The notes below the pieces were generated by a model, which was not told where the DNA came from, ran no database searches, and saw only the letters and a list, made by a program, of their open reading frames with translations. From Bacteroidetes bacterium SB0662_bin_6 (GTDB lineage: Bacteria; Bacteroidota; Rhodothermia; Rhodothermales; VXPQ01): DNA of 55,461 nt. Of the stretch, positions 37,290 through 55,461 are shown in pieces. Location of the stretch: NCBI GenBank assembly GCA_009839485.1, contig VXPQ01000038.1, positions 73,153 through 128,613 on the forward strand, in the 5' to 3' direction. How positions within the stretch are numbered: the stretch's first letter is position 1; each line of letters starts with the position of its first letter. Both the position numbers and the translations under genes were made by a program.

Positions 37290-39062
37290 TCAGTCGACAC
37301 GATGCGTGATTTCAACCTGATGAGGACCGCGCACGAGATCCGGTTCTTCCAGAGAAACCTCAAGCCGGATCGGACCCGCAGGCAGGGAAATACCTTCATA
37401 CCGCACGGCGCCTTCCCCTGCCGCGGCGTCTACGGAATACTCCGTATCATCCGCCTGAAGCAGCACGGTCAGCGGTTTGTCGGAGGGATCGAACCGCACC
37501 AGCACGTCATAGGTCCCTTCGCCCCTGACGTCCAGTAACCAGAAGCCCTGCGCATTACGGCGCCATCCCCCCTGTATGAAGCGCCAGTCCTGCCGCGTCA
37601 AAACCGTCGGGTTTTCGTGCGGCGTACCCACATGAATACGCGGAGGGGCATAGTTATCGGGCCGGGTGCTGCTCACATCGTCGAACCAGGCATTGTAGCG
37701 TATCATCAGGTCCCCCACGACGTCAGCACGTTCGGCGGCCAGATCCGTAAGGGCGTACGGATCCTCCAGCATGTCGTACAACTCGAACGCCGGACCCTCT
37801 TCCGGAAGCGCCTCCAGCCCGAACCCACTGCCGTTGACCAGTTTCCAGCGCGGCGTGCGCACCGAGACATGATGGTAGCGGTCCGGCACATTGCCGCGGT
37901 GCGTTTGCAGCACAAGCATCCGATCGCCCTGATCCACTTCTTCGCCCAGCAACGCCGGCAAGAGGCTCTGTCCGTCGATCGTGCGGTCGTCCGGGAGCGC
38001 CACCGCCGCCGCGTCGAGCATGGTGGGCATCAGGTCGATATGCGCCGAAATGTGATCGTCGAGGCGTCCCGGGATAAGCTGCGCGGGCCAGCGCACCAGA
38101 AGCGGCGAGCGGATCCCGCCCTCATGCACGCCGGCTTTCATGCCTTGCATACCCGCCACGTAGCGGCGCGTATTCGGACCGTTATCGACAATGAACATGA
38201 CCAGCGTGTTTTCCGCCAGACCCGACTCGTCGAGCCAGGCCGTGAGCCGCCCCATGTTGTCGTCGATGTTGTCGATCATGGCAAAAATGCGGGCCAGGCG
38301 GTCCGGGTCGTTCTCTTCCGGCAGCAGGTGTCCGGCCTCCTGCGGAAATCGCGCGGGGGACAGATCCTGGCCTGCATAGTACGCATACAGGTCCTCCGGC
38401 ACGTCGTGGTACGGCGAATGGGGGGCGTTCGCGGCGATATAGGCGAAGAACGGGCGTCCCGCCGCATGTTCGGTTTCCATCCACTGGCGCGCCTCGTCGA
38501 AATAAATGTCGGTGCAGTACCCGGTCATTTGCTCCAGTTCGCCGTTGCGCAACAGAATCGGATCGGTGTAGGCTCCTTCGCCGCCGGGCGGATCCGACGG
38601 CTGGCCGATTCCTCCGCCCCGGTGCACGAGCGCCTCTTCGAACCCCTGGTCCTGCGGGCGCATGGGGTAGTTATCCCCAAGGTGCCACTTCCCGAAGATG
38701 CCCGTGGCATAGCCGGCGCCCTGAAGCAATTCGGCCACAGTGATCTCGTCCGGGTCCATCATGGCCCGGCCCACCCAGGTATCGACGACGCGGGTGCGGT
38801 AATTGTACCGCCCCGTCATGAGCGATGCGCGCGTGGGAGCGCACACCGGACTGACATAAAACGGGTTGACCTGGATGCTTTCCGTCGCCAGTTGGTCCAG
38901 GTGAGGCGTCCGGAGGATCGGGTTGCCCGTGAATCCGAAATCCCCGTAGCCCTGATCATCCGTAATGACGAGGATGATGTTCGGAGGCGTATCGCCGGAA
39001 GGAGCGGTGCATCCTGCGAGAAGAAGCAGCGGAACGAGAAACAAGGGGGAAAAGCGCATCAT
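37290..39062 (-). CDS. Sulfatase lipoprotein with C-terminal beta domain
   Basis: A 590-residue type I sulfatase anchored as a lipoprotein (lipobox LLAGC, C18). Metal ligands D35-D36 in ITDDQGYGD, formylglycine motif C74-A-P-T-R78, and K125/H127 in FGKWHLG are intact. The order and FIVDNGPNTRRY are arylsulfatase-like. The last about 100 residues (from RQDWRFIQGGWRRN) form a beta-rich extension, possibly carbohydrate-binding. The start is one of two adjacent ATGs. It lies directly after another sulfatase gene across a 19-bp-period repeat. Substrate is unknown. Confidence 0.92.
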   Translation of the reverse strand: MMRFSPLFLVPLLLLAGCTAPSGDTPPNIILVITDDQGYGDFGFTGNPILRTPHLDQLATESIQVNPFYVSPVCAPTRASLMTGRYNYRTRVVDTWVGRAMMDPDEITVAELLQGAGYATGIFGKWHLGDNYPMRPQDQGFEEALVHRGGGIGQPSDPPGGEGAYTDPILLRNGELEQMTGYCTDIYFDEARQWMETEHAAGRPFFAYIAANAPHSPYHDVPEDLYAYYAGQDLSPARFPQEAGHLLPEENDPDRLARIFAMIDNIDDNMGRLTAWLDESGLAENTLVMFIVDNGPNTRRYVAGMQGMKAGVHEGGIRSPLLVRWPAQLIPGRLDDHISAHIDLMPTMLDAAAVALPDDRTIDGQSLLPALLGEEVDQGDRMLVLQTHRGNVPDRYHHVSVRTPRWKLVNGSGFGLEALPEEGPAFELYDMLEDPYALTDLAAERADVVGDLMIRYNAWFDDVSSTRPDNYAPPRIHVGTPHENPTVLTRQDWRFIQGGWRRNAQGFWLLDVRGEGTYDVLVRFDPSDKPLTVLLQADDTEYSVDAAAGEGAVRYEGISLPAGPIRLEVSLEEPDLVRGPHQVEITHRVD

Positions 39063-39176
39063 GTGGAAAGTTCGGATAAAGCAGGGAAAGCGGCGAAAAA
39101 CAGGGAAAATCCTGAAAAGCAGGGAAATAAGAAAAAATCAGGGAAAATGACAATTTCCAGGAAAAGCATCGTCAAT
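39063..39176. repeat. 19-bp-period repeat array between two sulfatase genes
   Basis: CAGGGAAA begins at 39082, 39101, 39120 and 39139, exactly 19 bases apart. CAGGAAAA follows in phase at 39158, and a degenerate GTGGAAAG lies at 39063. The intervening 11 bases are mostly A-rich and not conserved. On the transcribed strand each unit ends TTTCCCTG. The array fills the whole spacer between the two genes and slightly enters the upstream gene's 3' end. Confidence 0.75.
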
Positions 39177-40719
39177 GAGTCAACCGCGCCGCAAGAGGCA
39201 GCACCGGGTCGTTGATCTCGGTCATGCGCTCCAACAGACGGGCATCGAGGTACTTGATCGCGGCGCGGACTTCCGGCGTGTCTTCCGCAATGAGGTTCAC
39301 GCTTTCGGCGGGATCGTCCACCAGATTGAACAACTCGTCGCGGCGCGCATCGAGCAGGTCGCGGACCATTTTCCATTCGGGGGTTCGATAGGCACGCATA
39401 TGGGTCCACGACTGGTGATGCGTAGAATACTCCGCATAAAATTCGGTAGGCCAGTCTTCGGGCGTATCGCCCCGTAAGAGCGGCACGAAACTGCGCCCCC
39501 GCAGCAGCAGCCCGGCAGGCACGTCGGCTCCGCCCATCTCGGCAAGCGTGGCGTACCAGTCGAGATTGCTTACGATCGACTCCACGACGGTACCGGGCGC
39601 GGTGACCCCCGGCCACCGGACGAGCAGCGGCACCTTCAGCGAATTGTCGTACATGTTCGGACGCTGCCCCTGCGGCACATTGTACGTGCCCGGCGGCGGG
39701 TCGGTCAGGATCCAATGCCCGTTCCCCTTGTGCCACATCCCGTTATGGCCCATGTTGTACCCATGATCGGACGTAAAGACGACAATGGTGTCGTCTGTAA
39801 GCCCAAGTTCGTCGAGCACATCAAGAATGCGCCCCAGGTTACGATCGATGCTTGCTACTGCCGCAAGATACTCGGGCATATAGCGGTGCAGGCGAGCCGT
39901 ATCGAGCAGGGGATAATCGGGATTGGGCAGGACGGCGTCGAGTTCCTCATACGGCGCCCAGTCTTCCTCCGGCAAAGGCAGCCAGGCGGCGTGGGGCGCC
40001 CGGTAGTGGAGCGACAGCATGAAAGGGCCTTCCCGATGTTCCCGGAGAAACCCGATGGCCTGATCCGTCAGGATGTCCTGGGTGAACCCCTCATGCGTTC
40101 CCGTCACGCCGTTTTCTTCGAGGACGGGATCGCGGGGGGTGTTGCCGCCGCTGCGGAATCCGAAGAAATGGTCATACCCCATCGTGGTGGGATGGTACCG
40201 ATCCTGTGTTCCAAGATGCCACTTGCCGACAAGTCCCGTCTCATAGCCTTCCTGGTTCAGCAAATCGACCCAGGTGAGAAGGCCCGGGTCCAGCCCATGA
40301 CCGACCTCCCGCTGAGGATTGATCCAGTCCCAAACATTCACTTCCGAGCCGTAGCGGCCTGTCATGAGTTCCGCCCGCGACGGACTGCATACGGGCGTCG
40401 CCACAAAGGCATTGCTGAAAAATGCCCCTTCCGCCGCGAGGCGATTCATGTGGGGCGTGCGCAGGTCCGGATGCCCCGCACCGAGCACGGCGAAGTTTTC
40501 GGGATCGCTTTCCAGGGCATGTCCCATGGATGCGGCAAGCGTATGGCCTTCCGCGCCCAGCGCCCACGGCGCCTGATCGTCGGTCAGAATGAAGAGGATA
40601 TTGGGCCTCTCCGGCAGATCGGCGGCGCCTGTGTCCTGGGCGGCGGCCGGAAAGGTCAGAAAAGCGACAAAGAAGATCACCGGCGCCCGCAGGGTGCGGG
40701 AAAACAATAATTTCACCAT
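39172..40719 (-). CDS. Secreted type I sulfatase
   Basis: A 515-residue sulfatase with a signal peptide (1-28, ending FPAAAQ). The core shows D47-D48 in LTDDQAPW, formylglycine motif C111-S-P-S-R115 in CSPSRAELMTGR, and K166/H168 in VGKWHLG, plus VVFTSDHGYNMGHNG. The overall look is closest to N-sulfoglucosamine or other glycan sulfatases; substrate is inferred only. It starts two bases from a dispersed repeat end (copy E) and is followed by the lipoprotein sulfatase across a 19-bp-period array. The two may be co-transcribed. Confidence 0.93.
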   Translation of the reverse strand: MVKLLFSRTLRAPVIFFVAFLTFPAAAQDTGAADLPERPNILFILTDDQAPWALGAEGHTLAASMGHALESDPENFAVLGAGHPDLRTPHMNRLAAEGAFFSNAFVATPVCSPSRAELMTGRYGSEVNVWDWINPQREVGHGLDPGLLTWVDLLNQEGYETGLVGKWHLGTQDRYHPTTMGYDHFFGFRSGGNTPRDPVLEENGVTGTHEGFTQDILTDQAIGFLREHREGPFMLSLHYRAPHAAWLPLPEEDWAPYEELDAVLPNPDYPLLDTARLHRYMPEYLAAVASIDRNLGRILDVLDELGLTDDTIVVFTSDHGYNMGHNGMWHKGNGHWILTDPPPGTYNVPQGQRPNMYDNSLKVPLLVRWPGVTAPGTVVESIVSNLDWYATLAEMGGADVPAGLLLRGRSFVPLLRGDTPEDWPTEFYAEYSTHHQSWTHMRAYRTPEWKMVRDLLDARRDELFNLVDDPAESVNLIAEDTPEVRAAIKYLDARLLERMTEINDPVLPLAARLTH

Positions 40720-43283: not shown

Positions 43284-43991
43284 CTATTCCTCTCTCAAGC
43301 GCACCGGCACCTCTTCCCTTGCCAATCCATAGGCAACGCCCACGGCCCATGTCTGGAGTTCCTTGTACCGTTTGCGGACCCATGCCTGCAGAACGATATT
43401 GAGCGGCCACAGAACCAGACGCACTACAAGAGCAAGCATCGTGGAGACGACCGCGATGCCGAGCCCTACGAGGTCCGAAGCGGCATGCCGGTTGCCGCTC
43501 ATAAAGAGCACGAAAATACCGAGGAGCGTACCGAGAAGACCCAGACTGAGCGCAATATAGACCGCCGCCGTGATATACCTGTCGACCTCCTTGTAGTTGT
43601 CGTGATCGAATCCGATATAACGCAGCGCATAGTCGAGCATGCTTTGCGGCGTGCCGCCGCGGCCTTGCTCCTCGAGCAGCCTCTCGCCTGCAAGTCGATA
43701 GGGATTGCCCGGACGCACTGAGAAGAGCGCTGTCCGGAAATCCTGTACCCCGAGATCGGAAGGGTTAATTTTCAATAACTCCTGACTCCCTCGCCACTGA
43801 CGGAAGTAGCGGACATACGCCGTACAAAGAAAGAAGAGGCCCAGTAAAAAGACGAGGGCGAGCGGAAACTCAAAACCCTGCGCATAGCCGAACAAATCCC
43901 AGATCGAGGTAGGAAGGAAGCTTCCTCCTACCTCCTGCGCCGGCAGAGCAAGCGTGGTATCGGCGGCCTGGGGCGAAACGGATTGCATCAT
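43284..43991 (-). CDS. ExbB/TolQ/MotA-type proton-channel protein
   Basis: A 235-residue inner-membrane protein. Three spans are visible at about 40-63, 138-164 and 170-200. The latter two carry the family core SLGLLGTLLGIFVLF and GLGIAVVSTMLALVVRLVLW, where the conserved Thr lines the proton path. The domain couples proton flow to a TonB/TolA-like partner through ExbD/TolR proteins. Its ExbD-like partners are encoded at 48238 and 49762, separated from it by usher and TPR genes, an unusual order. A promoter-like pair lies at 44017-44047, so it may be partly transcribed on its own. Confidence 0.88.
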   Translation of the reverse strand: MMQSVSPQAADTTLALPAQEVGGSFLPTSIWDLFGYAQGFEFPLALVFLLGLFFLCTAYVRYFRQWRGSQELLKINPSDLGVQDFRTALFSVRPGNPYRLAGERLLEEQGRGGTPQSMLDYALRYIGFDHDNYKEVDRYITAAVYIALSLGLLGTLLGIFVLFMSGNRHAASDLVGLGIAVVSTMLALVVRLVLWPLNIVLQAWVRKRYKELQTWAVGVAYGLAREEVPVRLREE

Positions 43992-44016
43992 TGTGTCGGG
44001 GGTAAGGATGGATTTG

Positions 44017-44047
44017 AAAAAATATTTTGACTGCCGAAAGAGAGCAA
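44017..44047 (-). promoter_or_regulatory. Candidate promoter for the ExbB-like gene
   Basis: On the minus strand TTGCTC (44042-44047), 17 bases, then TATTTTTT (44017-44024) lie 26 bases before the ATG. It sits in the 87-base gap after the usher gene. Confidence 0.4.
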
Positions 44048-44078
44048 GCGATAGAAACTACGTACTGCGGCGTGCATC

Positions 44079-46664
44079 TCAAAAAGGCCTTACAAGTATG
44101 TCCTGCACAGCTTCCTCTTGCACTTCGATATCCCGGGCAAAGGCCCGGAGGTCCTCCTGACCAAGCACGTCCCTGAGTTCAAGGCGATACACGCCTGGCG
44201 GCAGAAGGACCGAGAAGGCGCCCTCCTGGGATACTTCGGAGCTAAGAACCTCTTCATTTCCCTGGAAGAAAATGACGCTGGCCTGCGTGGGAGAACTCAG
44301 CGGCAAATCCTCGATGACTCCCTGCACGATGGTGTTTCTGTGTACGGGAATATTTACGCGCTTGGTCGATCCGGGGTCTGACATAAAACTGAACGTCGTA
44401 CCCGTAGGCAGTTGCAGCGCAGGATCGGGAACGGACGCCGGATCGATAACGACCTGATACGCCGTACTGGGCGCCAGAAAATCCGCACGCACGACGCTTG
44501 CATCCACTCGCTGGACACGGGCTTTGACAACCTTGATGTCGAGCCCTTCCACCAAAGATTCTTCCGGGTCTCTGCGGCCATCCCGATCCACATCGTAGTA
44601 CGCTTGCAGGAGGGCGCTGCTGCGCATGTGGGCCTGCCGGCTGAAGCGCATGGGCCGCCCCAATTCCATCGAGCCGTAGAAGCTCTGTCTGTGGTAAGGA
44701 TTACCCGATTCTATCGACGAATGGTTATTGACGCTTACCCACGGAGCATCCAGACGCAACGTGACGGAGGCTTGCATGTTGTCGTAGGCAAGATCGTAGC
44801 CGGCACGCAGACCAAGAGACACCTTTTTGTAGTAGGCGTAGAATGTCGCCCCCGCAAAATCCGCTTGCTCCTGCACTCCTCCGTCAGCCTGCAGGCCGAA
44901 GCGTCCGCGCAACCCCTTGAAGGAGGCTGCTCGTGTCAGCGTGGCCTTCCAGTGCATGCGAACAGATTCCGAGGAAAGAGCGCTTTGGCTGCGGTTAAGG
45001 CCGACCGTAACGAGCGCGCTCGTCCTGCGCGGCAGGGTCAGCGTCGTCGAACCGCTCACACTCATGTTGTCGCCGCCGCTGAACGTTCTGGCCTGTGCGG
45101 CATTGAGAAACAGGCTCATACGCCGAACACCGAAGCTGAGCTGCGTCTGAAGCCGCCTCTTGTAGAAAGAAAGCCGAGACTCTTCGGAAAACTCGGCTTC
45201 CGTCTGCACGCGCAACCTGTTGAAGGACATGCGCATAGAGACCCGCGCAGCACTGCCCCCTTCATTAATCGGAAGCGCCAGTTCGGCGCCTGCTGTCAAA
45301 AAGCCCCAGAGGTTTTGAGTCAATCCGACGGTACTGGCCATGAGCGAGTCGACACCTATAAAGGTGGCCTTTGCAGAGAGACTCCGGTTGATTCCATAGC
45401 GGGCCTGTCCGAATCCAAAAAAGGTGTCGCCGAAACCGTCGCGTCCTATCTGAATGTCGTTGAAGTCGTCAAGTCCTGTTCGGAGGTTTTTAAAGTCGTC
45501 AACCCCTGCTCGGATATCGTACCAGAAAGCGCCGGGAGGCAGCAGATCCTCCCCGATGAAGAGGTGGCGCGTTATGGTGGTAGGGGGACCGCCTCCGGGG
45601 GGAGCAATCTCGAGCAAAGCCTGCGAGGAGCCGTAATAGGCAGGGATGCGCAGCGTGTAGCGCCCCTGCGCGTCCGCCCGCACACGGTCGGCAAGCACCC
45701 CGCCCACCGAGGCAGCAATGATCGCGTCCGGTTCGGCAATGCCTCGTACCACCGCTTCCCGTTGAACGTACCGCGTCGAAAGGGGCATGTTACTCAGGCG
45801 AAAGCCGTCGTAGGTCGTACGAACTGGCCACTCGTACATACTCATGCGCCCTATCTCCGCGCGCTTGAGCAAAGGGGAATCCGGAAAATCGAGCAGGTAG
45901 TTCAACGAACGAAACCGCGTCGTTGTCTGCCCCTCTACCATCGAAAGAGCGCCTTCGGCGGCAAGGCGCCCGCCCAACGCATTCGAATGGACCTGGAACC
46001 CCCCATTGTAACTGGGCGAACCGGCCTGCCGGTCGCTGCGTGTCAGGCGGTAGTTGATATGCGTATTGCCCAGAAATTGGCGGGAACGGCCGTAGAGTAA
46101 AGGACCGTGGGCGTGATTGCCGGAAGCGGCCGGCCTGGCGGTGAATGCACTTGCCAGCGGCGCCATCGCCGTGGAAAGCCTGATGTGCAGCGTCGAAGTA
46201 TCGAACTGCATGGAAGCAGGCGTGAACATCGCCTGCACACCCTCCAACGCAAGATAATAGCGCCCTTCACTTGCAAAAAAGTCTTCGGGGGCAAGCTCCA
46301 CAGGTTCCGATGTGTCCTGCAATACCCGGCCCGTTGCAAAATCGACCGTAAATATACGCCCCGCATCTCTGGCCTCGATCACCGAATCCCGCGCAGAAAC
46401 ATTGAAACCGAGCCGGTCGAAAAAATCCGCGATATCCAGGTAGTACCTGCCTGCTTCAAAGTCCCACCAGGCCAGGACCGGCATCGAAGAATACAGCGCC
46501 CCCGGCGTACTTACCGTCCAGGGCGTCTCCTGTAAAAAACGAAGGGGTCTTTCCGGCTCCTCTGTCTCCTGCGCCCAAACGATGTCGGGTAGACAGCAGA
46601 CGGCAACAAATATCACCGGAATAAAAGCGCCCAGGCGCCGCCAAATATGTCTTACAGACTGCAT
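44079..46664 (-). CDS. Outer-membrane usher-like protein (archaic chaperone-usher type)
   Basis: An 861-residue exported protein with signal peptide (1-32). Its order of segments follows archaic/spore-coat-type ushers. An N-terminal periplasmic domain includes YYLDIADFFDRLGF and a Y-ALEG-DTSTLHIRL segment. The barrel includes RAEIGRMSMYEWPVRTTYDG. A plug/hairpin region AVVRGIAEPDAIIAASVGG is followed by LLPPGAFWYDIRAG. C-terminal domains begin AYYDVDRDGRRDPEESLVEG and contain VIDPASVPDPALQLPTG. Ushers form the pore for pilus or adhesin subunits. Assignment rests on pattern only, since sequence divergence is high. It sits in a tight operon with ExbD, TonB-like and TPR genes, not with a normal chaperone gene. 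Confidence 0.72.
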   Translation of the reverse strand: MQSVRHIWRRLGAFIPVIFVAVCCLPDIVWAQETEEPERPLRFLQETPWTVSTPGALYSSMPVLAWWDFEAGRYYLDIADFFDRLGFNVSARDSVIEARDAGRIFTVDFATGRVLQDTSEPVELAPEDFFASEGRYYLALEGVQAMFTPASMQFDTSTLHIRLSTAMAPLASAFTARPAASGNHAHGPLLYGRSRQFLGNTHINYRLTRSDRQAGSPSYNGGFQVHSNALGGRLAAEGALSMVEGQTTTRFRSLNYLLDFPDSPLLKRAEIGRMSMYEWPVRTTYDGFRLSNMPLSTRYVQREAVVRGIAEPDAIIAASVGGVLADRVRADAQGRYTLRIPAYYGSSQALLEIAPPGGGPPTTITRHLFIGEDLLPPGAFWYDIRAGVDDFKNLRTGLDDFNDIQIGRDGFGDTFFGFGQARYGINRSLSAKATFIGVDSLMASTVGLTQNLWGFLTAGAELALPINEGGSAARVSMRMSFNRLRVQTEAEFSEESRLSFYKRRLQTQLSFGVRRMSLFLNAAQARTFSGGDNMSVSGSTTLTLPRRTSALVTVGLNRSQSALSSESVRMHWKATLTRAASFKGLRGRFGLQADGGVQEQADFAGATFYAYYKKVSLGLRAGYDLAYDNMQASVTLRLDAPWVSVNNHSSIESGNPYHRQSFYGSMELGRPMRFSRQAHMRSSALLQAYYDVDRDGRRDPEESLVEGLDIKVVKARVQRVDASVVRADFLAPSTAYQVVIDPASVPDPALQLPTGTTFSFMSDPGSTKRVNIPVHRNTIVQGVIEDLPLSSPTQASVIFFQGNEEVLSSEVSQEGAFSVLLPPGVYRLELRDVLGQEDLRAFARDIEVQEEAVQDILVRPF

Positions 46665-46687
46665 CCCAAATACATATCAGTTTTTTA

Positions 46688-48226
46688 CTACTGCCCCGAC
46701 CTTTCGGCACGCAGCGCCCTGTAACGATCCAGAAGACCCCTTACTTTTTCGGTGTCCCCCGTGCGACGATACAGGTTACCCATGAGGGTAAGGTAGGCAA
46801 GTTGATCCTCCCACCGCATCGTGTCGAAGATCTTCTCGATTCGTGGCTCCAGCAACCGGGCCTGTTCCGGATTATAGCGGGCGAGCCGCAACGCTTCGAC
46901 AAAAGCCCTGCCGGTATACTGGCTCTCCACTTCGGTGACCTGCATCAGATACGTAAACGCCAATGCGGAAGCTCCCTCGCTACGATGTTCCAGAGCGCGT
47001 TCGAAGAGCGTTGTGGCATACGTCTGCCGAAGATCGTCCAGGAATTCGGGATAGGGCGTTCGGGAGGTCTCCGTGCTATCCGTGGCCAGGCCCCAAAGCA
47101 CCTGCAGGGTATCCAGAGCGGCATCCTGGTCGTCGTGTTCCCAAGAGAGTAAGGCATGATTGTAACTCGCCTCGATACGCGCGGAGGTTTGCGTCAGGCG
47201 GGGAATAAGCCAGGCCAGCCCCTGTCGCGCCCCGGGAGGATCGGTGGAAAACAGGGTTTGCAAACTGTCATAGAGCAGCCGGTTCTCGAAATTGTGGTGG
47301 TCCCACAGGACCCAGTCCATTTCGTTGCGGGCATAGTCTTCCTGCTCGGACGTGGTCGTATACCCCTGTGCCAGGGGCAAGGCATGGCGCACTCCCTCTC
47401 CATCCCGGCTTTCAACAAACGCATGATACGAGCGGACATAATAGGTAAAAAGCGTAAGGCTGTCCGGCGGCGGGCGCTCCGTCTCCGGCACAAAAGCGAG
47501 GCGGGAATCGTCCAGAACCACTTCCGAGGCTTGCAACCACGTGAGGGCACTGGCAGGAAATTGATTCAGATTCTCCAGCACGACAGCTACCTCCGCCCAC
47601 AGGGCGTGATCGTCGGCGCGGAGAGCCAGTAATCCCCGCAACAAGGTAAGCACTTCCTCCCACGCCTCGTCTTGTCTCAGCCATTGGGCTCGAACACTGT
47701 ACACCTGAGCCAACTGGTGGCGGGCATCCTCATGCCGCGGATTCAGCGCCAGTGCGTTTTCAAATAACCTCTGAGATTCCGCAAGAAGCGTCTGAACGCG
47801 CAGGCTGTCCTGTTGCGCCTGGGCCTGAGCCGCTTGAATGAGTGTTTGTTGAGCCTGCGTATGGGCTTCCGTAAACGCCAACGTGTCCACCGGGGCAACG
47901 TCCGCAGAGTCTCCCGATACATCCAGCGACTGCAGAGGCGGCTCCCCGTTCATGCGGCGCAGCGTGCTGTCTATGCGCTCGAACAAGGCGCGTCCTTCCA
48001 GAAAATTTTCTTCCGCTCGGGTTTCCGCCAGCACGTGCACAAAGGCGCCGTGGAAAGAATTCAGCACATCCGCAATAACCAGGCTATCCACGCCGGGAAG
48101 CGGCGGCGAAACCGGATCCATGGAAACAGGCTCACTCTCGGTAACAACCTCTTTCGAGGAGCCGCATCCCCATAAAAACGCGAGACACAGCGCGCCCGCC
48201 ACCGTAAGTATTGCGAATCGATGCAT
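46688..48226 (-). CDS. TPR-rich lipoprotein
   Basis: A 512-residue lipoprotein (lipobox FLWGC, C21). The mature part is almost all helical with TPR-like units, for example LFENALALNPRHEDARHQLA (about 155-174), the WEEVLTLLRGLLAL helix and MGNLYRRTGDTEKVRGLLD near the C-terminus. A Gln/Ala-rich coiled stretch (AQQTLIQAAQAQAQQ) lies near 130. Such proteins usually act as periplasmic or outer-membrane scaffolds in envelope machines. It starts 11 bases after an ExbD-like gene and ends 23 bases before the usher, so its role is probably assembly of that system. Confidence 0.85.
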   Translation of the reverse strand: MHRFAILTVAGALCLAFLWGCGSSKEVVTESEPVSMDPVSPPLPGVDSLVIADVLNSFHGAFVHVLAETRAEENFLEGRALFERIDSTLRRMNGEPPLQSLDVSGDSADVAPVDTLAFTEAHTQAQQTLIQAAQAQAQQDSLRVQTLLAESQRLFENALALNPRHEDARHQLAQVYSVRAQWLRQDEAWEEVLTLLRGLLALRADDHALWAEVAVVLENLNQFPASALTWLQASEVVLDDSRLAFVPETERPPPDSLTLFTYYVRSYHAFVESRDGEGVRHALPLAQGYTTTSEQEDYARNEMDWVLWDHHNFENRLLYDSLQTLFSTDPPGARQGLAWLIPRLTQTSARIEASYNHALLSWEHDDQDAALDTLQVLWGLATDSTETSRTPYPEFLDDLRQTYATTLFERALEHRSEGASALAFTYLMQVTEVESQYTGRAFVEALRLARYNPEQARLLEPRIEKIFDTMRWEDQLAYLTLMGNLYRRTGDTEKVRGLLDRYRALRAERSGQ

Positions 48227-48237
48227 AACGAAACTGC

Positions 48238-48612
48238 TTAGGGGGATGTACCAGGTGCGACCTGAACAAGAAAAACGGCTTGTCTTCCGGCTCTTTGCAC
48301 AAGGGTGTTCGCATTGAGCATCAGGTATGCGGGAGCATTCCTGTCGGCCGTGAATTCGACCACGCGATCCGGATGACTCGCCATCAGCAAGGCATAGAAA
48401 TCGGCCGGGTTAAGTACTGCAGGAGGCCCTTCGCTCACAGGAGTGAGAAACGTTCCGTTATCCGATATGGCCACCTGAAGAGGCTGGAGCTGGGGCATCC
48501 CGGTTTCCGCCTCCTGACTCATGGGCGGTTCTATCTCGAACGTGGGCACCGTGCTGATCGCCACAAGTGTGGCCAGCAGAATGAGTACGATGTCTACCAG
48601 GGATTCATCCAT
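48238..48612 (-). CDS. ExbD/TolR-like protein, short form
   Basis: A 124-residue protein with almost no cytoplasmic N-terminus. It begins MDESLVDIVLILLATLVAIS, where D7 sits at the start of the only membrane span, the position of the proton-carrying Asp of ExbD/TolR/MotB. The periplasmic part (about 30-124) has the ExbD-type alpha/beta pattern (LQVAISDNGTFLTP, DRVVEFTADRNAPAYLML). It lies 10 bases after the TonB-like gene and 11 before the TPR gene. Confidence 0.78.
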   Translation of the reverse strand: MDESLVDIVLILLATLVAISTVPTFEIEPPMSQEAETGMPQLQPLQVAISDNGTFLTPVSEGPPAVLNPADFYALLMASHPDRVVEFTADRNAPAYLMLNANTLVQRAGRQAVFLVQVAPGTSP

Positions 48613-48622
48613 CTTTTTTCAA

Positions 48623-49747
48623 CTACATGTTTTGGCGTTCCTGCAGCCACCAGGTAACGAAAAACCTGAAAAAGTCCCTTGCCTCGGGGCTTGTGGGAGA
48701 AAAATCTTCGCTCTCGACAAAGTCGACGCGCTGCATATCATCCCGGTCCACGTTTCCCTTCTGGAAATACTGAGCGCGCTGCTGAAATCCGGGGTCGACG
48801 AAATAGTAAATATCGCTTTCCCTGATCAGAGCGATCCGAATTTCCCTGTTGGAGGGGGTGTACATCATCTGGATTTCGGAGGGCTCGGCATTGATCGTGG
48901 TTTGCGCTCTGGCGCTGATCGCGGGAGGAGCAAAGTAAAAGAGTGACCTGATCCCGGGATCCAGTTCGGCCTGATTAGCCATGATCCATTGCAAAAGGGA
49001 GTCCGACGGAACGGAAATATCTCCCTCGCCAAGCATCAGGTTATCCATACGGGCTCCCGATCCGGACGAGGACTCGAGCGACGGCGCTCCCGCTCCCCCG
49101 GTGGCCCGAATGGTTTGCCGGCCAGGCCGATCGGTGAAAGAAAGATCCTCCAGGTTGCCCGTGTAACTGCGGGAGCCGCCTGATTCGCCGCGCAAGGACG
49201 CAAAAGACTCCCCGATAAGGTTCGATGAAAGGGACCGCGACGAACGGGAAGCGTTGTTGGCGGCGTCCAGAAAGTCCTGCGCCAGATCCAATCCCGGGTC
49301 AAAGGCGGATTGCGCGTCGGCAAAAGGCGTCAGATCCTGCTCCGTCAGCGAGACAACCTCCCGGTTGTTCTCTTGGGCCTGCGGGTCTTCAAGAGATACA
49401 TCGGAAAAGGAAAAGGCCTCGAACGCCTCGGCCATCAGCGCCTCAACGTCTTCCGCCAGCAGTTCGTCGGGCGGCATTTCGGGGTCAAGGGGTATTTCAT
49501 CCGCATCTTCTCCCGGCTCCTCGGGAACCACTTCGTCCGCAGCGTCCGCCAGGTCTACTTCTTCAAAGAAAGACGACAAATCCAGGGTTTCCAGCATGAG
49601 CGCCTCCAGCGTGGTCTCGGCAAAACTCCGGTCAGGCAGCGGTACAATGCCGCATACCAGCGCAAAGAGCGCAGAAATGCCGACAAACACAAACCACGAA
49701 ATGCGGCGCGTTTTTCTTTCCTCCTTTTCAGCCCAGGACAATGCCAT
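48623..49747 (-). CDS. TonB/GltG-like single-span acidic periplasmic protein
   Basis: A 374-residue protein with a basic cytoplasmic N-terminus (WAEKEERKTRR) and one membrane span at 17-36. A long, very acidic and Pro/Ser-rich periplasmic stretch follows (about 45-260, such as EEPGEDADEIPLDPEMPPDE) and then a more folded C-terminal part ending FFRFFVTWWLQERQNM. This is the topology of a TonB-type energy transducer, but I see no canonical TonB C-terminal motif. The ATG at 49747 is chosen because it precedes the span and follows the previous stop by 14 bases. It sits between two ExbD-like genes. Confidence 0.65.
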   Translation of the reverse strand: MALSWAEKEERKTRRISWFVFVGISALFALVCGIVPLPDRSFAETTLEALMLETLDLSSFFEEVDLADAADEVVPEEPGEDADEIPLDPEMPPDELLAEDVEALMAEAFEAFSFSDVSLEDPQAQENNREVVSLTEQDLTPFADAQSAFDPGLDLAQDFLDAANNASRSSRSLSSNLIGESFASLRGESGGSRSYTGNLEDLSFTDRPGRQTIRATGGAGAPSLESSSGSGARMDNLMLGEGDISVPSDSLLQWIMANQAELDPGIRSLFYFAPPAISARAQTTINAEPSEIQMMYTPSNREIRIALIRESDIYYFVDPGFQQRAQYFQKGNVDRDDMQRVDFVESEDFSPTSPEARDFFRFFVTWWLQERQNM

Positions 49748-49761
49748 GGAACCACAGAAAA

Positions 49762-50145
49762 CTAATTGTTGACGGTGCATTGCCAGCCACGCCGGGTACA
49801 CAGGTCGAGCATGGACACCAACTGCTGGACGGTAGCTTCGCCTTGCGGGGAAAGTACAAAAATCGTTCTCGCGTTCTGCCTGTACGCCTGCTCCAGACAT
49901 CCCGCCAGTGTGGCGAGGCTTGTGGGAATGCAGGCCGCCTCACTCTGGGGTAACCGCAGGACCAGGAATTGCATACGGTCGTCAAACTGAACCTCATACA
50001 AAGGCACAGGGTCGCTTTCCTCCTGCTGCCCGTCGGGAAGCGGCACATCCACTTCAGGAATCGTCTCGGTCAGCATCAGGAAACCCACGAGAAGAATAAA
50101 CCCCAGGTCGATAAAAAGAAGGAGATCGGAACGGTCTTTTTCCAT
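49762..50145 (-). CDS. ExbD/TolR-like protein, second paralogue
   Basis: A 127-residue protein with a short basic start (MEKDRSD) and one span at about 8-25 (LLLFIDLGFILLVGFLML). D13 is the expected proton-binding Asp. The periplasmic domain has VDVPLPDG, LYEVQFDDRMQFLVLRL and an extra set of three Cys (AACIPT, AGCLEQ, LDLCTRR) with TVNN at the C-terminus. The ATG at 50145 gives the usual ExbD N-terminus. An upstream ATG at 50187 would overlap the preceding gene. It differs clearly from the short ExbD-like protein at 48238. Confidence 0.82.
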   Translation of the reverse strand: MEKDRSDLLLFIDLGFILLVGFLMLTETIPEVDVPLPDGQQEESDPVPLYEVQFDDRMQFLVLRLPQSEAACIPTSLATLAGCLEQAYRQNARTIFVLSPQGEATVQQLVSMLDLCTRRGWQCTVNN

Positions 50146-50155
50146 ACCGAAAATG

Positions 50156-50851
50156 TTATTGACAGGAACGGGAGGCGATGCTTCCACCTCTTGTCATACT
50201 CTCGACGACAACACATCCCTCGCTGTCGATGTACGAAAAAACCTCCGGTTGCTTGTGCACCATGATCACCAGCGGATCCGATTCCTGTATGTCCGGCTGG
50301 ATGCATTGCGTGGCCTGCGGGACAAAGGTCCAAAGGTCCTCTTCGTAGTTCCAGAAGGTAATATGGACGTCTTCCCCCCGCTGAAGAAGATGAATTTCCA
50401 TAGGTCCTTCAGGGTAGTAGTGCAGGAGAGACCCTAATATGGCCCCGGCAAGCGCCTTCTTCGCGTCCTCCTCCACTTCGCCTTCGTCAGCCAGCAGGGG
50501 GCTTCTGTCGCGCACGGTGTTGATTCGATAGTCCGTTTCCAGATTCAAAGAAACCAGCGTATTGAGCATGGCCTCCGGAAAGTACTGGCTCAGCGAAAAA
50601 TGCTCTTCGCTTGGATAGAGGATAAGGATGTCGTTCGAACCGAATCCGTCTTCCGTGACATCCAGAAAGGCCGCATGCGTATAATCGGGATCGTTGGGGA
50701 AAATAATCTGGTCTTCCAGAAAGCGGCTTATGAACTCCAGGTCATATACCTCGGCGGCAGGAAGCACGCGCTGGTTCACCCTTGCGTCCTGTCCAAGAGC
50801 GTCCCCAAAAGGCAAAAGCAACAGGCCCGAAAGGATAAAAATTCGTCTCAT
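50156..50851 (-). CDS. Exported protein of unknown function, first gene of the usher/ExbBD operon
   Basis: A 231-residue protein with a signal peptide (MRRIFILSGLLLLPFGDALG). The mature part is mixed alpha/beta and acidic, with two Cys late in the chain (QCIQPDI, EGCVVVE) and a third two residues from the end. No known domain is recognised. The ATG at 50851 is chosen for the signal peptide; the frame is open further upstream. A good promoter lies about 105 bases before it. It starts the operon with ExbD, TonB-like, ExbD, TPR and usher genes. Confidence 0.75.
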   Translation of the reverse strand: MRRIFILSGLLLLPFGDALGQDARVNQRVLPAAEVYDLEFISRFLEDQIIFPNDPDYTHAAFLDVTEDGFGSNDILILYPSEEHFSLSQYFPEAMLNTLVSLNLETDYRINTVRDRSPLLADEGEVEEDAKKALAGAILGSLLHYYPEGPMEIHLLQRGEDVHITFWNYEEDLWTFVPQATQCIQPDIQESDPLVIMVHKQPEVFSYIDSEGCVVVESMTRGGSIASRSCQ

Positions 50852-51221
50852 GGCTCGGGAAGAAATCACAAAAGATGTTTTGAATAAATCGGGCATGTTC
50901 TCAGGTGCATTGTGATGACAAAAACATGTCGTTGCCGGATAGCGATTTGCCTTCAGCAAAGTACGTTATGGGCGGCATGATTGTCAATCGACCGGCAAAC
51001 GTGCAGCGCCCTCGCGCGCGTCTAATGTACGCCCCGGCGAAAGCCGTGTCGAGAGACAGGGCGTCCGGCGTTACGGCAAGTGTTTGAAACAAATTATCAA
51101 TATGTAAAATGATTTTCACGGCATTTATGTGTCTTAGCTGTGACATTATGGGGTTCATCTATAATTATATTGTAACTTCATGGATGAACGGGGCATTCGA
51201 TACCCTTCTATGAGCGGCACA
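50852..51221. other. 370-base intergenic region before the usher/ExbBD operon
   Basis: The part next to the giant gene's end (51080-51200) is AT-rich. The middle is GC-rich, and the minus-strand promoter candidate lies at 50957-50987. I see no ORF with support. Confidence 0.5.
50957..50987 (-). promoter_or_regulatory. Promoter of the usher/ExbBD operon
   Basis: On the minus strand TTGACA (50982-50987), 18 bases and TACTTTG (50957-50963) form a near-perfect match to the Bacteroidota-like pattern, about 105 bases before the ATG at 50851. Confidence 0.6.
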
Positions 51222-54200
51222 TCAGGGTTTCCGGACAAGCGTTGCGGGAGTCCTTGTACGGCCCTTGTCCCCGGCAGCGCCTATATCCCTGTGCGGCGCA
51301 TTCCACTCAATGAACACCGGCTCCGGCACACGGTCCGATCCCCGAGGAGCAAAACGTAAAAACACAGCCCCTTCCTCAGGTATACGATCCAGAGGCACGC
51401 GTACCCGGCTACGCGTGTACACCAGTGTCTCGCGGCGGCCCAGCTCGCGACCGTCCCCGTCGTACGCCACTACCTCACCCACAAACGGATGATCCGGCGT
51501 CTCTACCAAAAACGTTGCGGACACCGGGCCCGCAAACGAAAGCGACAACAGCGTTGCGCGTAGTTGCGACGCCCCTTCCCCAGGTACGTACACTCCCGGT
51601 ACACGCATCGTCACACGAGCCGTGCGGTCCCCTGCAACCTCCTCTGGCATTTGATCCGTACGAGCATAGCGACGAGGCTCGGACACTACGTCGAAGAACG
51701 CAGCATAGCCTTTCCCCGCCATCGCTGCATGCGCTTCCTCTTTCACCCCGTAACGGACAAGACCCTTCTCGCCCGGCATCAGAACCAGCACCCCCGGATG
51801 AATGTCCACCACCCCGGACAAATCGCTCAAACGTGAGGCTGATGCATCCTCTATCACCACCTCCCGGCCATTCTCCGTCGCCTCCGTGTACCCGAAACGG
51901 GCCGACACCGATACCTCCAGTGGAACAAGCGACGGATTCGACAGCTCGAACACCCCGTCGGGCTTCTCCCCGGTCAAAAACGCCACGTCGGGGTAGATGC
52001 TCAGGTTCTGCTCCTCGGTCAATGCAACAGGAAGCTCACGCGATGTGCTGAAGCGCACCCCGCCCGGACCTATGGTAATCACCCGCTGTGCGGGAACGAC
52101 CGTCACCGACACTTCCACAGTGTGTGTTTCCTCGCGCTCGCCCGAACGCAGAATGAGGTCCATATTCCCCGCATACCGCCCCGAAGGCGCACCCGTAAGG
52201 TCCAACTCCCCTCCGAAGCGAAGCAGCCGGCAGGCGTCCTCCGATAGCGTCACCTCCGTATACAGACCTCCTACTGTCTGAGACGAAAGCTGCTCGCACG
52301 AGGCTGCATACGACCAGTTGGGTGCAAGAACAAGCGAAGCGGCCTCGATAGCATCCGCACGTTTGAGCACCACCGGCGAGACCAGCTCGATAGAGAGGTC
52401 CATCTCCCCATTCTCATCAAACACTTCGCCGCCGCCCGGCGCAAGCGTCATGCGGCCCCCATGGTACGGTCCCGATACATAGGTTGATATGCCATCGGTC
52501 ATCGGATCGAGCGACACCTCTGTATCAGAGGACTGTACCCCGAAACGAAGAGCCGATACGCTTATCGTTACGCCAAGAGCCGTCGGATCGGAAGGCGCCC
52601 CGGCCGAGGAAGAAGACACCAGAGAAGGCTCTTCCATTGGAGGCGAAACAGGTTCGGGAGGGGAAACAGGCTCAGGTTCGGGCGTCTGTATGCGGTTGAG
52701 CACCGTCACGGCCACCTCTGCCGAACCGTCTTCCGCATTCTCCGCGCTGACCGTAAGCAGGTATTCGTACGTCGTCGTAACATCTATAGCATCCGGCACG
52801 TAAAAAATGGGGGACTCTATGTCCGTTGCGCTAAGTAGCGCCGTATCCGGCGTGTCCCCGCGGGCCGTCCATGCATATTCGTGGTCAGAACCGGTAGGCG
52901 CCCCCGAGGCCTCGCAGTCGAACGCGACGTCATCCGATCCTTCGTACACCGAACCGGGATCCGCGCATGTCACCGCAAGCGCAGGCTTGTCGAGCACTGT
53001 CACGGTCAACTCACCAGTGGCAACCATACTGCCCGCCGTAACCGTTGCCGTGTACGTGAAAGACACATCCTGCTCCACATCGGCCGGCACAGTAAAGACG
53101 GGGGTGCGGATACGGGGACCCGTCAGATGGGTGTCCGGAGACCAGTCCCACTCCCGAAGCACGCCGGGCGGTCCACCTGATGCGGTGCACTCGAGCCCGA
53201 AGGACGCCGATCCCTCATAGACCGTGCGGTCGGTGCAGACGACGGCAAGATCATCACTATCGTACACATTCACGGTAAGGTCGAATACACCGGGGTCTAT
53301 ATTCTCTGCGGATGTCGATACCGTAAGTCTGTACGTGTACGCCTCGTCGCCATCCACCTCATCCGGTACATAGAACGTCGGTGAGGCCACGTCTGTAGCA
53401 CTCAAAAGCGATGTGTCCGATGTATTCCCCCGAGCTGTCCATGCGTAGGCGTAATGGCCCGCCGCCGGCGCCCCCGAAGCCGTACAATCGAATGCAATGT
53501 CCGGCGCACCTTCGTACGCCGAAACAGGATCGATGCACGCCACACTCAAAGCGCCACGGTTCAACACCGTCACCGAAACCTCAGCCGTAGCGGATTCCGC
53601 ATTGTCCGCCGAGACGGTCAGCAGGTACTCGTACGTAGTGGTCTCGGGCACATCATCCGGTACAAGAAACGTCGGGGTAAGATGGGTCATATCCGAGAGA
53701 AGCGCCGTGTCCAATGTACTCCCCCGGGCCGTCCATGTGTAGTTGTAATGGGAACCCACAGGCGCCCCCGAAACCGAGCAATCCAGAGCGAAGTCCGCCG
53801 AGCCTTCGTAAACCGAAGGCGGATCCACGCATACCGCATGCAAGGCGCCCTGATTAAGCACCGTCACCGTCACCCTCGCCGCACCGGACTCCGCATTCTC
53901 CGCACTGACCGTCAACAGGTACTCGTACCTCGTCGTCGCATCCAGCGCATCCGGCACGGCAAACGTCGGGGTCGGGCTGTCTGTGCCGGCTATCAGCCGA
54001 TCCGTGTTCCCCGTCGAGCCCCGCGCCATCCAGGCATACGTGTACTCGGAACCCGCAGGCGCCCCCGAAGCCGTGCAGTCCAAATCGAAGTCCTCCGAAC
54101 CTTCGTACACCAAAGGAGGAGGCGCACAAGCAACGGCCAGCGTGCCGCGGTTAAGCACCGTCACCACAACTTGCACCGAAACAGAGTCCGCATTGGCGGC

Positions 54201-55461
54201 CGATCCCGTCAGTGTGTATTCGTAGGTCTCGTTACTCTCCACTTCATCCGGTACGTAGAAGGTGGGATCGAGCAGTCTCGAATCGTTCAGAAGGTCAATC
54301 CTGCTACCACTCCACGCAAATGAAGGCGTAATCGGGTTGACTCCTCCGTACGATGCCGTGCAGTCAAACTGAATGTCCTCTCCGCCCTCGTACACCAGGG
54401 GAGGCGATTCGCAACTGAGTACAATCGATCCGATTTTAAGCACCCTGACCGTCACTTCTGCCGTGGCGTCTATCGCATTCTCTGCCGAGACCGTCAGCAG
54501 GTACTCGTACGTTTCGTCAGCGTCCACTGTCTCCGGTACGTCGAAGGTAGGAGCAGGACCATCCGTATCGCCTATAAGAAGGTCTGTGTTCGTCGTGCCG
54601 CCGCGCGGCGTCCAGGCATATTGGATTGTGGAACCTGCGGGAGCCCCCGTAGCCACGCAGTCCAGGTCCAAGTCCGCCGCACCCTCATACACCGGAGAAG
54701 GCGTGGCGCACACCACTTCCAGCGCCTTCTTGTCGAGCACCGTTACCGTAACGTCGGATGCCGCATCTTCCGCATTCTGAGCAGAAGCGGTCAGCGTGTA
54801 CTCGTAGATTCCGTCGTTGTCCACCTCATCCGGTACATAGAACGTCGGCTTCGCAATCGCCGGATCGCTTAACTCGTCCGTGTTCGCCGTATCGCCGCGC
54901 GGCGCCCAGGCATATTTGATTGTGGAACCCGTTGGAGCACCCGATGCCTCGCACTCCAGATCGAAGTCCTCCGCGCCCTCGTACACCGGAGCAGGAGGCG
55001 TACATACCAGCGCGAGCGGCAGCTTGTTCAGCACGGTGATCGTATAGGGCATTGAAAAGGGATCGGCATTGTCCGCCGACACGGTGAGCGTATACCTGTA
55101 CGTTTCATCTTGCGAGACTTCATCGGGAACCAGAAACCAGGGTCGGTACGTGTCCGGATTGCTCAGAAGAGATAGTGCGGCGCTCCGTGTACTCCCTCTG
55201 GTTGTCCATCCGAACCTGTAGACGGCATTGGGACCCGGTGCACCTGTCCAATTACAGAACGGAAACTGAAAGTCCACGTCCCCCTCATAAACTATCTCCG
55301 TCACATGCCTGCCATCGATAAAATCCGAGCACGGAACGATATCCGGCTTCTCCAGAACCGTCACGGTAATGTCGGCGCTGGCGACATCGGCGCCTCCGGC
55401 AGACAGCGTCACCGTGTATTCGTAGGCCTTATCCGATCCGCCCGGTTCATCAATATCGCCT
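51222..55461 (-). CDS. Giant Ig/PKD-like repeat surface protein, 5' end outside window
   Basis: At least 1,412 residues; the frame stays open to the window edge, so the true start lies beyond 55461. The visible N-terminal two-thirds consists of nine complete, roughly 92-residue beta repeats plus a partial one. Each has paired Cys around a VYEG motif (for example C-P-VYEGSEDFDLDC), a central YAWTARG and an end motif VPDEV-ETYEYLLTVSAENA. A Pro/Glu-rich linker follows (about 52605-52695). Next is a DUF4402-like pilin domain (about 52050-52590, GGELDLTGAPSGRYAGNMD). Last is a PapD-chaperone-like domain (about 51230-52045, VFELSNPSLVPLEVSV, then VLVLMPGEKGLVRYG). It is the gene upstream of an usher/ExbBD operon, so I infer an adhesin or surface fibre exported by that system. 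Confidence 0.82.
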   Translation of the reverse strand, partial: GDIDEPGGSDKAYEYTVTLSAGGADVASADITVTVLEKPDIVPCSDFIDGRHVTEIVYEGDVDFQFPFCNWTGAPGPNAVYRFGWTTRGSTRSAALSLLSNPDTYRPWFLVPDEVSQDETYRYTLTVSADNADPFSMPYTITVLNKLPLALVCTPPAPVYEGAEDFDLECEASGAPTGSTIKYAWAPRGDTANTDELSDPAIAKPTFYVPDEVDNDGIYEYTLTASAQNAEDAASDVTVTVLDKKALEVVCATPSPVYEGAADLDLDCVATGAPAGSTIQYAWTPRGGTTNTDLLIGDTDGPAPTFDVPETVDADETYEYLLTVSAENAIDATAEVTVRVLKIGSIVLSCESPPLVYEGGEDIQFDCTASYGGVNPITPSFAWSGSRIDLLNDSRLLDPTFYVPDEVESNETYEYTLTGSAANADSVSVQVVVTVLNRGTLAVACAPPPLVYEGSEDFDLDCTASGAPAGSEYTYAWMARGSTGNTDRLIAGTDSPTPTFAVPDALDATTRYEYLLTVSAENAESGAARVTVTVLNQGALHAVCVDPPSVYEGSADFALDCSVSGAPVGSHYNYTWTARGSTLDTALLSDMTHLTPTFLVPDDVPETTTYEYLLTVSADNAESATAEVSVTVLNRGALSVACIDPVSAYEGAPDIAFDCTASGAPAAGHYAYAWTARGNTSDTSLLSATDVASPTFYVPDEVDGDEAYTYRLTVSTSAENIDPGVFDLTVNVYDSDDLAVVCTDRTVYEGSASFGLECTASGGPPGVLREWDWSPDTHLTGPRIRTPVFTVPADVEQDVSFTYTATVTAGSMVATGELTVTVLDKPALAVTCADPGSVYEGSDDVAFDCEASGAPTGSDHEYAWTARGDTPDTALLSATDIESPIFYVPDAIDVTTTYEYLLTVSAENAEDGSAEVAVTVLNRIQTPEPEPVSPPEPVSPPMEEPSLVSSSSAGAPSDPTALGVTISVSALRFGVQSSDTEVSLDPMTDGISTYVSGPYHGGRMTLAPGGGEVFDENGEMDLSIELVSPVVLKRADAIEAASLVLAPNWSYAASCEQLSSQTVGGLYTEVTLSEDACRLLRFGGELDLTGAPSGRYAGNMDLILRSGEREETHTVEVSVTVVPAQRVITIGPGGVRFSTSRELPVALTEEQNLSIYPDVAFLTGEKPDGVFELSNPSLVPLEVSVSARFGYTEATENGREVVIEDASASRLSDLSGVVDIHPGVLVLMPGEKGLVRYGVKEEAHAAMAGKGYAAFFDVVSEPRRYARTDQMPEEVAGDRTARVTMRVPGVYVPGEGASQLRATLLSLSFAGPVSATFLVETPDHPFVGEVVAYDGDGRELGRRETLVYTRSRVRVPLDRIPEEGAVFLRFAPRGSDRVPEPVFIEWNAPHRDIGAAGDKGRTRTPATLVRKP
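52700..55461 (-). repeat. In-gene tandem repeats (about 276 bp each)
   Basis: About ten units of roughly 276 bp encode the Ig/PKD-like domains. DNA similarity is visible in the segments coding TVSAENA and VYEG, for example the recurrent GTACTCGTA. Repeats differ by many substitutions, so the array is old or diversifying. Confidence 0.75.

Follow-up and report, generated by a model that had tools for sequence, protein, structure and literature searches.

Chaperone-usher fibres are the textbook case of energy-free assembly across the outer membrane. A gene cluster in the Rhodothermales draft genome Bacteroidetes bacterium SB0662_bin_6 places an usher among genes for a motor of the kind driven by the proton motive force (PMF). 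Each part of the cluster belongs to a recognisable family, and its novelty lies in the joining of a motor to a chaperone-usher system. We consider it very probable that the usher and the PMF motor work as one surface machine. In the open-access literature (subscription papers and preprints lay outside the scope of the search), no paper was found on a link between an usher and a PMF motor.

Locus and gene order

The stretch of DNA analysed, hereafter the window, comprises 55,461 nucleotides (contig VXPQ01000038.1, positions 73,153–128,613, forward strand) and forms the final 55 kb of its contig. The genome is a draft of 2.92 Mb that is 96% complete. All eight ORFs of the cluster were confirmed on the minus strand, and all coordinates of cluster features given below are window positions on that strand. 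Reading down from 50851, the genes encode an exported protein, ExbD-like protein 2 (ExbD2), a single-span linker protein, ExbD-like protein 1 (ExbD1), a TPR lipoprotein, the usher, and an ExbB-like channel protein; this order is referred to as type A. The gaps between them, read from the sequence, are 10, 14, 10, 11, 23 and 87 bases, figures that use the conserved ExbD2 start at 50145, the ORF itself opening at 50187. The initial annotation, made from the sequence, had described eight minus-strand genes, six of them chained from 50851 to 44079 by spacers of 10–23 bases, and both descriptions stand. In promoter and terminator scans, terminators were no more numerous than in shuffled sequences. 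A single close relative was found, which is near-identical, with 95% usher identity. Downstream of the cluster, at 37290–40719, two adjacent minus-strand ORFs resemble sulfatases as judged by eye.

The usher

The identification of the 861-residue protein (44079–46664) as an outer-membrane usher is well supported by its modelled plan, by fold matches to FimD and PapC, and by a homologue that passes the usher profile. An AlphaFold2 model built from 16 homologues (mean pLDDT 78, pTM 0.58) predicts an N-terminal domain, six strands, a plug, 18 strands, and two C-terminal Ig-like domains, amounting to the 24-strand barrel with plug expected of an usher. The plug is an inserted domain (residues 302–370, about 45555–45761) between strands 6 and 7. 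In a Foldseek comparison of the model with the PDB, the 19 best matches were all FimD or PapC (E 1.8e-30 to 3.9e-12), the top match being FimD 3rfz (E 1.8e-30), and PapC 2vqi gave a TM score of 0.67 by target length.

Searches of Pfam, NCBIfam, and PDB sequences returned no match for the window usher or its near family. PF00577 matches four of 19 relatives and leaves the window usher itself unmatched, but a bridge is provided by the L075 protein, a homologue from another family, which passes PF00577 at 6.3e-8, over the cut-off. The family label "archaic-type" previously given to the usher was not supported.

Motor-type proteins and their partners

The ExbB/TolQ/MotA-type channel protein (43284–43991, 235 aa) matches PF01618 (MotA_ExbB) at E 2.6e-6, over the cut-off. 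ExbD1 (48238–48612, 124 aa) reaches 25.6 bits against PF02472, over the cut-off of 25.4, and ExbD2 (49762–50145, 127 aa) reaches 25.0 bits (E 2.2e-5), 0.4 bit below it. As these scores are low, the window ExbB and ExbD sequences are regarded as divergent; two other MotA/ExbB-family genes elsewhere in the genome score much better, so the window ExbB is an extra, divergent copy. A relative of this ExbB from an usher-less locus scores 6e-14 to PF01618. Channel residues, namely the Thr of ExbB and a transmembrane (TM) Asp in both ExbDs, are invariant across the 18–22 homologues aligned: the GLLGT motif of TM2 and the Ser-Thr of TM3 in ExbB (22/22), Asp7 in the TM segment of ExbD1 (18/18), and one TM Asp of ExbD2 (18/18). 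One ExbB-like channel with two ExbD-like proteins, as first annotated, is borne out by these results, and protein families and channel residues together suggest that the system would be proton-driven. ExbD2 also has four Cys conserved without exception across 18 homologues, which may form two disulphides within the periplasmic domain.

The linker protein (48623–49747) had been described as a TonB-like acidic single-span protein. It is TonB-like in topology and in its acidic linker, but not in family or fold. Its AlphaFold2 model has a TM segment at residues 3–34, disorder at 65–243, and a confident C-terminal domain at 248–373, and G331, E347, and W366 are invariant in the homologue alignment. 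This conserved C-terminal domain matched no Pfam family, gave no TonB or TolA Pfam match in 25 homologues, and matched no PDB fold (best E 0.006, to CapZ); its profile recovered nothing meaningful from PDB sequences. A TonB-domain identity was ruled out by AlphaFold2 and Foldseek.

The TPR lipoprotein (46688–48226, 512 aa) was recovered as annotated, with a TPR_17 match at E 1.1e-4 and a lipobox-like LWGC after the signal peptide, and its gene is found in nearly all complete loci. The exported protein (50156–50851, 231 aa, with signal peptide) is the first gene of the core. It has no Pfam match; a homologue sits in the module in about 30 loci, and the homologues include members of usher-less modules.

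The giant Ig-repeat protein

Upstream of the exported protein lies a giant surface protein (51222–55461), the N-terminus of which is cut off where the window and the contig end. Ig/PKD repeats were found in it by Pfam (PF22352 in six stretches, E 1.6e-32). Its homologues reach 2246 aa, several carry signal peptides, and one scores 24.6 bits against PF14352, just below the cut-off. The initial annotation had placed pilin-like and chaperone-like domains at the two ends of the giant. Both domains are present, but both are C-terminal: a DUF4402/pilin-like domain (52155–52586; pilin HMM E 2.4e-14) is followed by a putative PapD-like chaperone domain (51345–52019). Wherever the Ig gene of a type-A locus is in view (17 loci), a single protein contains, in this order, an Ig array, a pilin domain, and a chaperone domain.

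Loci with a second gene order, type B, carry instead one to three DUF4402-type proteins (best 1.1e-6) and a separate chaperone of 255–290 aa. An HMM built from these separate chaperones matches the end of the window giant at E 4.4e-29. The relationship of the chaperone to PapD is tentative: it is suggested by weak matches of relatives to PapD_N (9 of 29, best 6.7e-4, below the cut-off) and by position beside the usher, and the chaperone profile recovered nothing meaningful from PDB sequences.

Recurrence of usher and motor genes

Members of the near usher family occur in f1, the window's genus, and in f15, which represent two Rhodothermales families. The usher gene shares its strand with the ExbB gene at 34 loci, a recurrence which argues that their neighbourhood is not due to chance. 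That the window ends at a contig end of a draft genome might point to chance or an assembly artefact. The 34 loci include single-contig genomes of the window's genus and of f15, and this recurrence refutes such an explanation, to which we assign a negligible probability. Where a locus is cut neither by the end of a contig nor by the limit of the retrieved sequence, the complete set of six core genes (those for ExbB, both ExbDs, the linker, the TPR lipoprotein, and the exported protein) in most cases lies within 7–11 kb. In two genomes of the window's genus (G001 and G002), only usher, ExbB, and giant were seen and the linker was not found; the giant there runs to or near the contig end, and an assembly gap could account for the absence as well as a loss could. 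The apparent absence of some core genes from several loci was rejected as an artefact of overlapping ORFs or contig ends.

It had been asked whether usher, ExbB, and both ExbD genes co-occur elsewhere in the same order. Co-occurrence was confirmed, since all near homologues examined, apart from those truncated at the end of a contig, have usher and ExbBD genes side by side, but a single shared order was not, as two were seen. Type B runs exported protein, pilins, chaperone, usher, (pilin), ExbB, ExbD1, ExbD2, linker, and TPR lipoprotein, one plain chaperone-usher operon running into motor genes. All 35 ushers of both motor-linked families form one clade (100% SH-aLRT), a set that includes two loci cut before the expected ExbB site or without ExbB in view. 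With two gene orders and one usher clade, the association between usher and core has survived duplication and full reordering. The usher, the chaperone and pilin-type domains, and the six-gene core are inherited as one unit. In a separate observation, genome G196 carries four nearly identical type-A loci (L085, L086, L102, and L103) together with a type-B locus (L172).

A second motor beside the same usher family

Pilin-chaperone-usher operons of three further families (f16, f17, and f20) encode ushers from a distant branch of the window usher's family. Downstream of the usher and on the same strand, these operons continue with a FliF-FliG fusion and a TPR lipoprotein, the majority also having MotA and MotB (L079:12502–16772, L082:12089–17035, L106–L112, and L115–L120). 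No hook, filament, or export genes were seen near these loci, and no FliF-FliG match was found in the window's genome. The earlier proposal of an energised usher withstood both findings named in advance as fatal to it, the lack of an usher fold and homologues whose usher and ExbBD genes are never adjacent. It is further strengthened in two ways: complete pilin-chaperone-usher operons are recurrently joined to ExbB-ExbD-ExbD, and a second, distinct PMF motor (FliF-FliG, MotA, and MotB) stands beside the same usher family. A second FliF-FliG set was also observed with no usher nearby (L121:7847–12904, L122, L123, and L125), accompanied by an exported protein of ~367–396 aa, a TPR lipoprotein, MotA, and MotB.

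Other ushers of f16, f17, and f20 occur without motor genes, and the presence of the motor coincides with the architecture of the usher itself. Among 31 complete loci, the 18 with FliF-FliG have ushers without a long C-terminal tail and the 13 without it have ushers with one, a perfect split. Seven of seven independent tree comparisons go in the same direction (p 0.016); for these, the over-read start of L079 was adjusted manually and three truncated loci were excluded. Motor-less ushers (L076, L077, L081, L083, L126, L132, and L135) end in SPOR or OmpA domains, which are peptidoglycan-binding; among the 13 tailed ushers, the six tested carry such a domain. Most tails are similar to the MotB C-terminus found in motor loci (best 5e-24), and loss of the motor may have fused the MotB end to the usher. 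Because SPOR domains are widespread, the fusion is offered as a suggestion.

Motor-less relatives of the usher are common, and related ushers elsewhere in the phylum lack a motor in the loci examined. Known chaperone-usher assembly likewise requires no outside energy (PMC10673952; PMC9452303). From these two points, it follows that the basic assembly step does not depend on the motor.

The core without an usher

A search with the linker profile recovered the six-gene core without an usher in f9, f12, f14, f16, and f20 (L158–L171 and L175). In these loci, ExbB-ExbD-ExbD-linker-TPR-exported follows a PorP/SprF-like barrel protein, with a PorP_SprF score of 26.5 bits (cut-off 22.3) in L170 and weaker scores elsewhere. 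Most of them also encode a secreted FG-GAP/CARDB protein with a CHU_C type IX signal domain. The ExbB of L158 was observed to carry a C-terminal Ig-like extension. SprF is needed for the export of SprB, the adhesin moved by the PMF in Flavobacterium gliding (PMC9127263). At least two outer-membrane proteins thus partner the core, each connected with adhesins: the usher in some loci and the PorP/SprF-like barrel in others. The function of the core itself is accordingly not confined to ushers. SprA, of the type IX translocon, is present in 22 of 22 genomes tested and lies away from the cluster in the window's genome, which rules out the usher as a replacement for this translocon.

With a core that occurs without an usher in five other families, and an usher that occurs without a motor in most phylum members examined, it could be proposed that the two have separate jobs. 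The core would then be an independent envelope machine, serving Tol-Pal-like upkeep or a different adhesin system, and the chaperone-usher pathway encoded in the same operon would be self-sufficient. We regard this as improbable: core and usher have been kept together through duplication and complete reordering in two usher families, the giant gene shifts its position among loci yet remains in the cluster, and in other lineages the corresponding position is taken by another kind of motor. A joint machine of usher and motor is in better agreement with these patterns.

A joint machine could also use the PMF for assembly or secretion only, the linker opening the plug or driving the Ig chain through the pore in a TonB-like manner, with nothing moving later. 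The same anatomy would serve, Ig chains of up to 2246 aa go far beyond a normal pilin, and type IX export in related bacteria is likewise powered by the PMF (PMC9127263). Against this, type-B loci combine the same motor with small pilins of the ordinary kind, which elsewhere require no outside energy, and the core is found next to a PorP/SprF-type barrel as well, the known partner of which is a moving adhesin. For these two reasons, we consider secretion alone unlikely and force on the adhesin, rather than help in assembly, the better candidate for the output.

Proposed mechanism

The reading we prefer, with moderate confidence, is a chaperone-usher surface system built with a PMF engine that pulls, rotates, or retracts an usher-held adhesin. 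ExbB and the pair of different ExbDs would form an ion-driven stator in the inner membrane. The linker would cross the periplasm through its acidic disordered stretch and hand force to the TPR lipoprotein, which would contact the usher from under the outer membrane. The usher would export and hold the adhesin, and the engine's action on it could yield traction, surface motility, or active display. In this way, the cluster would move or tension surface adhesins.

In the window's branch, the adhesin would be one long Ig chain ending in its own pilin and chaperone. To judge from the domain order, the base of the chain could be trapped at the periplasmic mouth of the usher after export as a built-in anchor. 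We propose that the chaperone cannot leave its pilin, and that the fibre base would therefore be kept in the periplasm as a grip for the motor. In sister loci, the same engine would act on ordinary short pilins.

A broader proposal, on which our confidence is evenly balanced, is that Rhodothermia contain a class of usher machines powered by ion-driven rotary stators. Two motors would have been joined to one usher family, ExbB-ExbD-ExbD in two families and FliF-FliG with MotA-MotB in three, and the adhesin's own chaperone in the window would be a permanent periplasmic base gripped by the motor. If this is true, one usher family is coupled to PMF motors across five bacterial families, ushers can serve in machines that generate force, and cells would have a new way of moving over surfaces or adhering actively. 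If coupling is shown, a motor-driven usher would be without a described counterpart found in the open-access literature. Within this one usher family, a comparison of members with the ExbBD motor, with the FliFG motor, and with no motor could show where the motor touches the usher.

Comparison with known systems

AglRQS, the gliding stator of Myxococcus, consists of one ExbB-like and two ExbD-like proteins and works with a single-span TonB-like partner and TPR proteins (PMC3169522). The window has the same stator make-up, a single-span partner, and a TPR protein, a likeness taken from the published description, and the cluster might accordingly be read as a Rhodothermia branch of the Agl-Glt motor with an unusual outer-membrane protein. 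We regard this reading as very improbable: Agl-Glt lacks an usher, a chaperone, and a pilin, nothing in Pfam or the PDB matches the linker domain, and Glt-specific genes were not encountered. The usher-based machine proposed above shares features with four other systems.

In SprB-SprF/type IX gliding (PMC9127263), the parallel is with the usher-less core, which adjoins a PorP/SprF-like barrel and a CHU_C protein; in the window, the usher takes the place of the barrel. The gliding motor there is GldL-GldM, whereas here it is ExbB-ExbD-ExbD, and neither GldL nor GldM is among the Pfam matches of the eight cluster genes. TonB-ExbB-ExbD and Tol-Pal share with the window the ExbB and ExbD families with their conserved TM Thr and Asp. 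Unlike them, the window has no TonB/TolA C-terminal fold, two different ExbDs, and no receptor, TolB, or Pal gene. Flagellar FliF, FliG, MotA, and MotB come after the same usher family in the cousin loci, the first two as a FliF-FliG fusion.

With FimD/PapC chaperone-usher systems, the window has in common the usher fold with a plug between strands 6 and 7 and a putative PapD-like chaperone; in the type-B sister loci, DUF4402 pilin-like subunits share one operon with the usher, a further point of agreement. The window differs from these systems in adding an ExbB-ExbD-ExbD engine, a linker, and a TPR lipoprotein, and, in its branch, the chaperone is covalently fused to the pilin and the Ig array.
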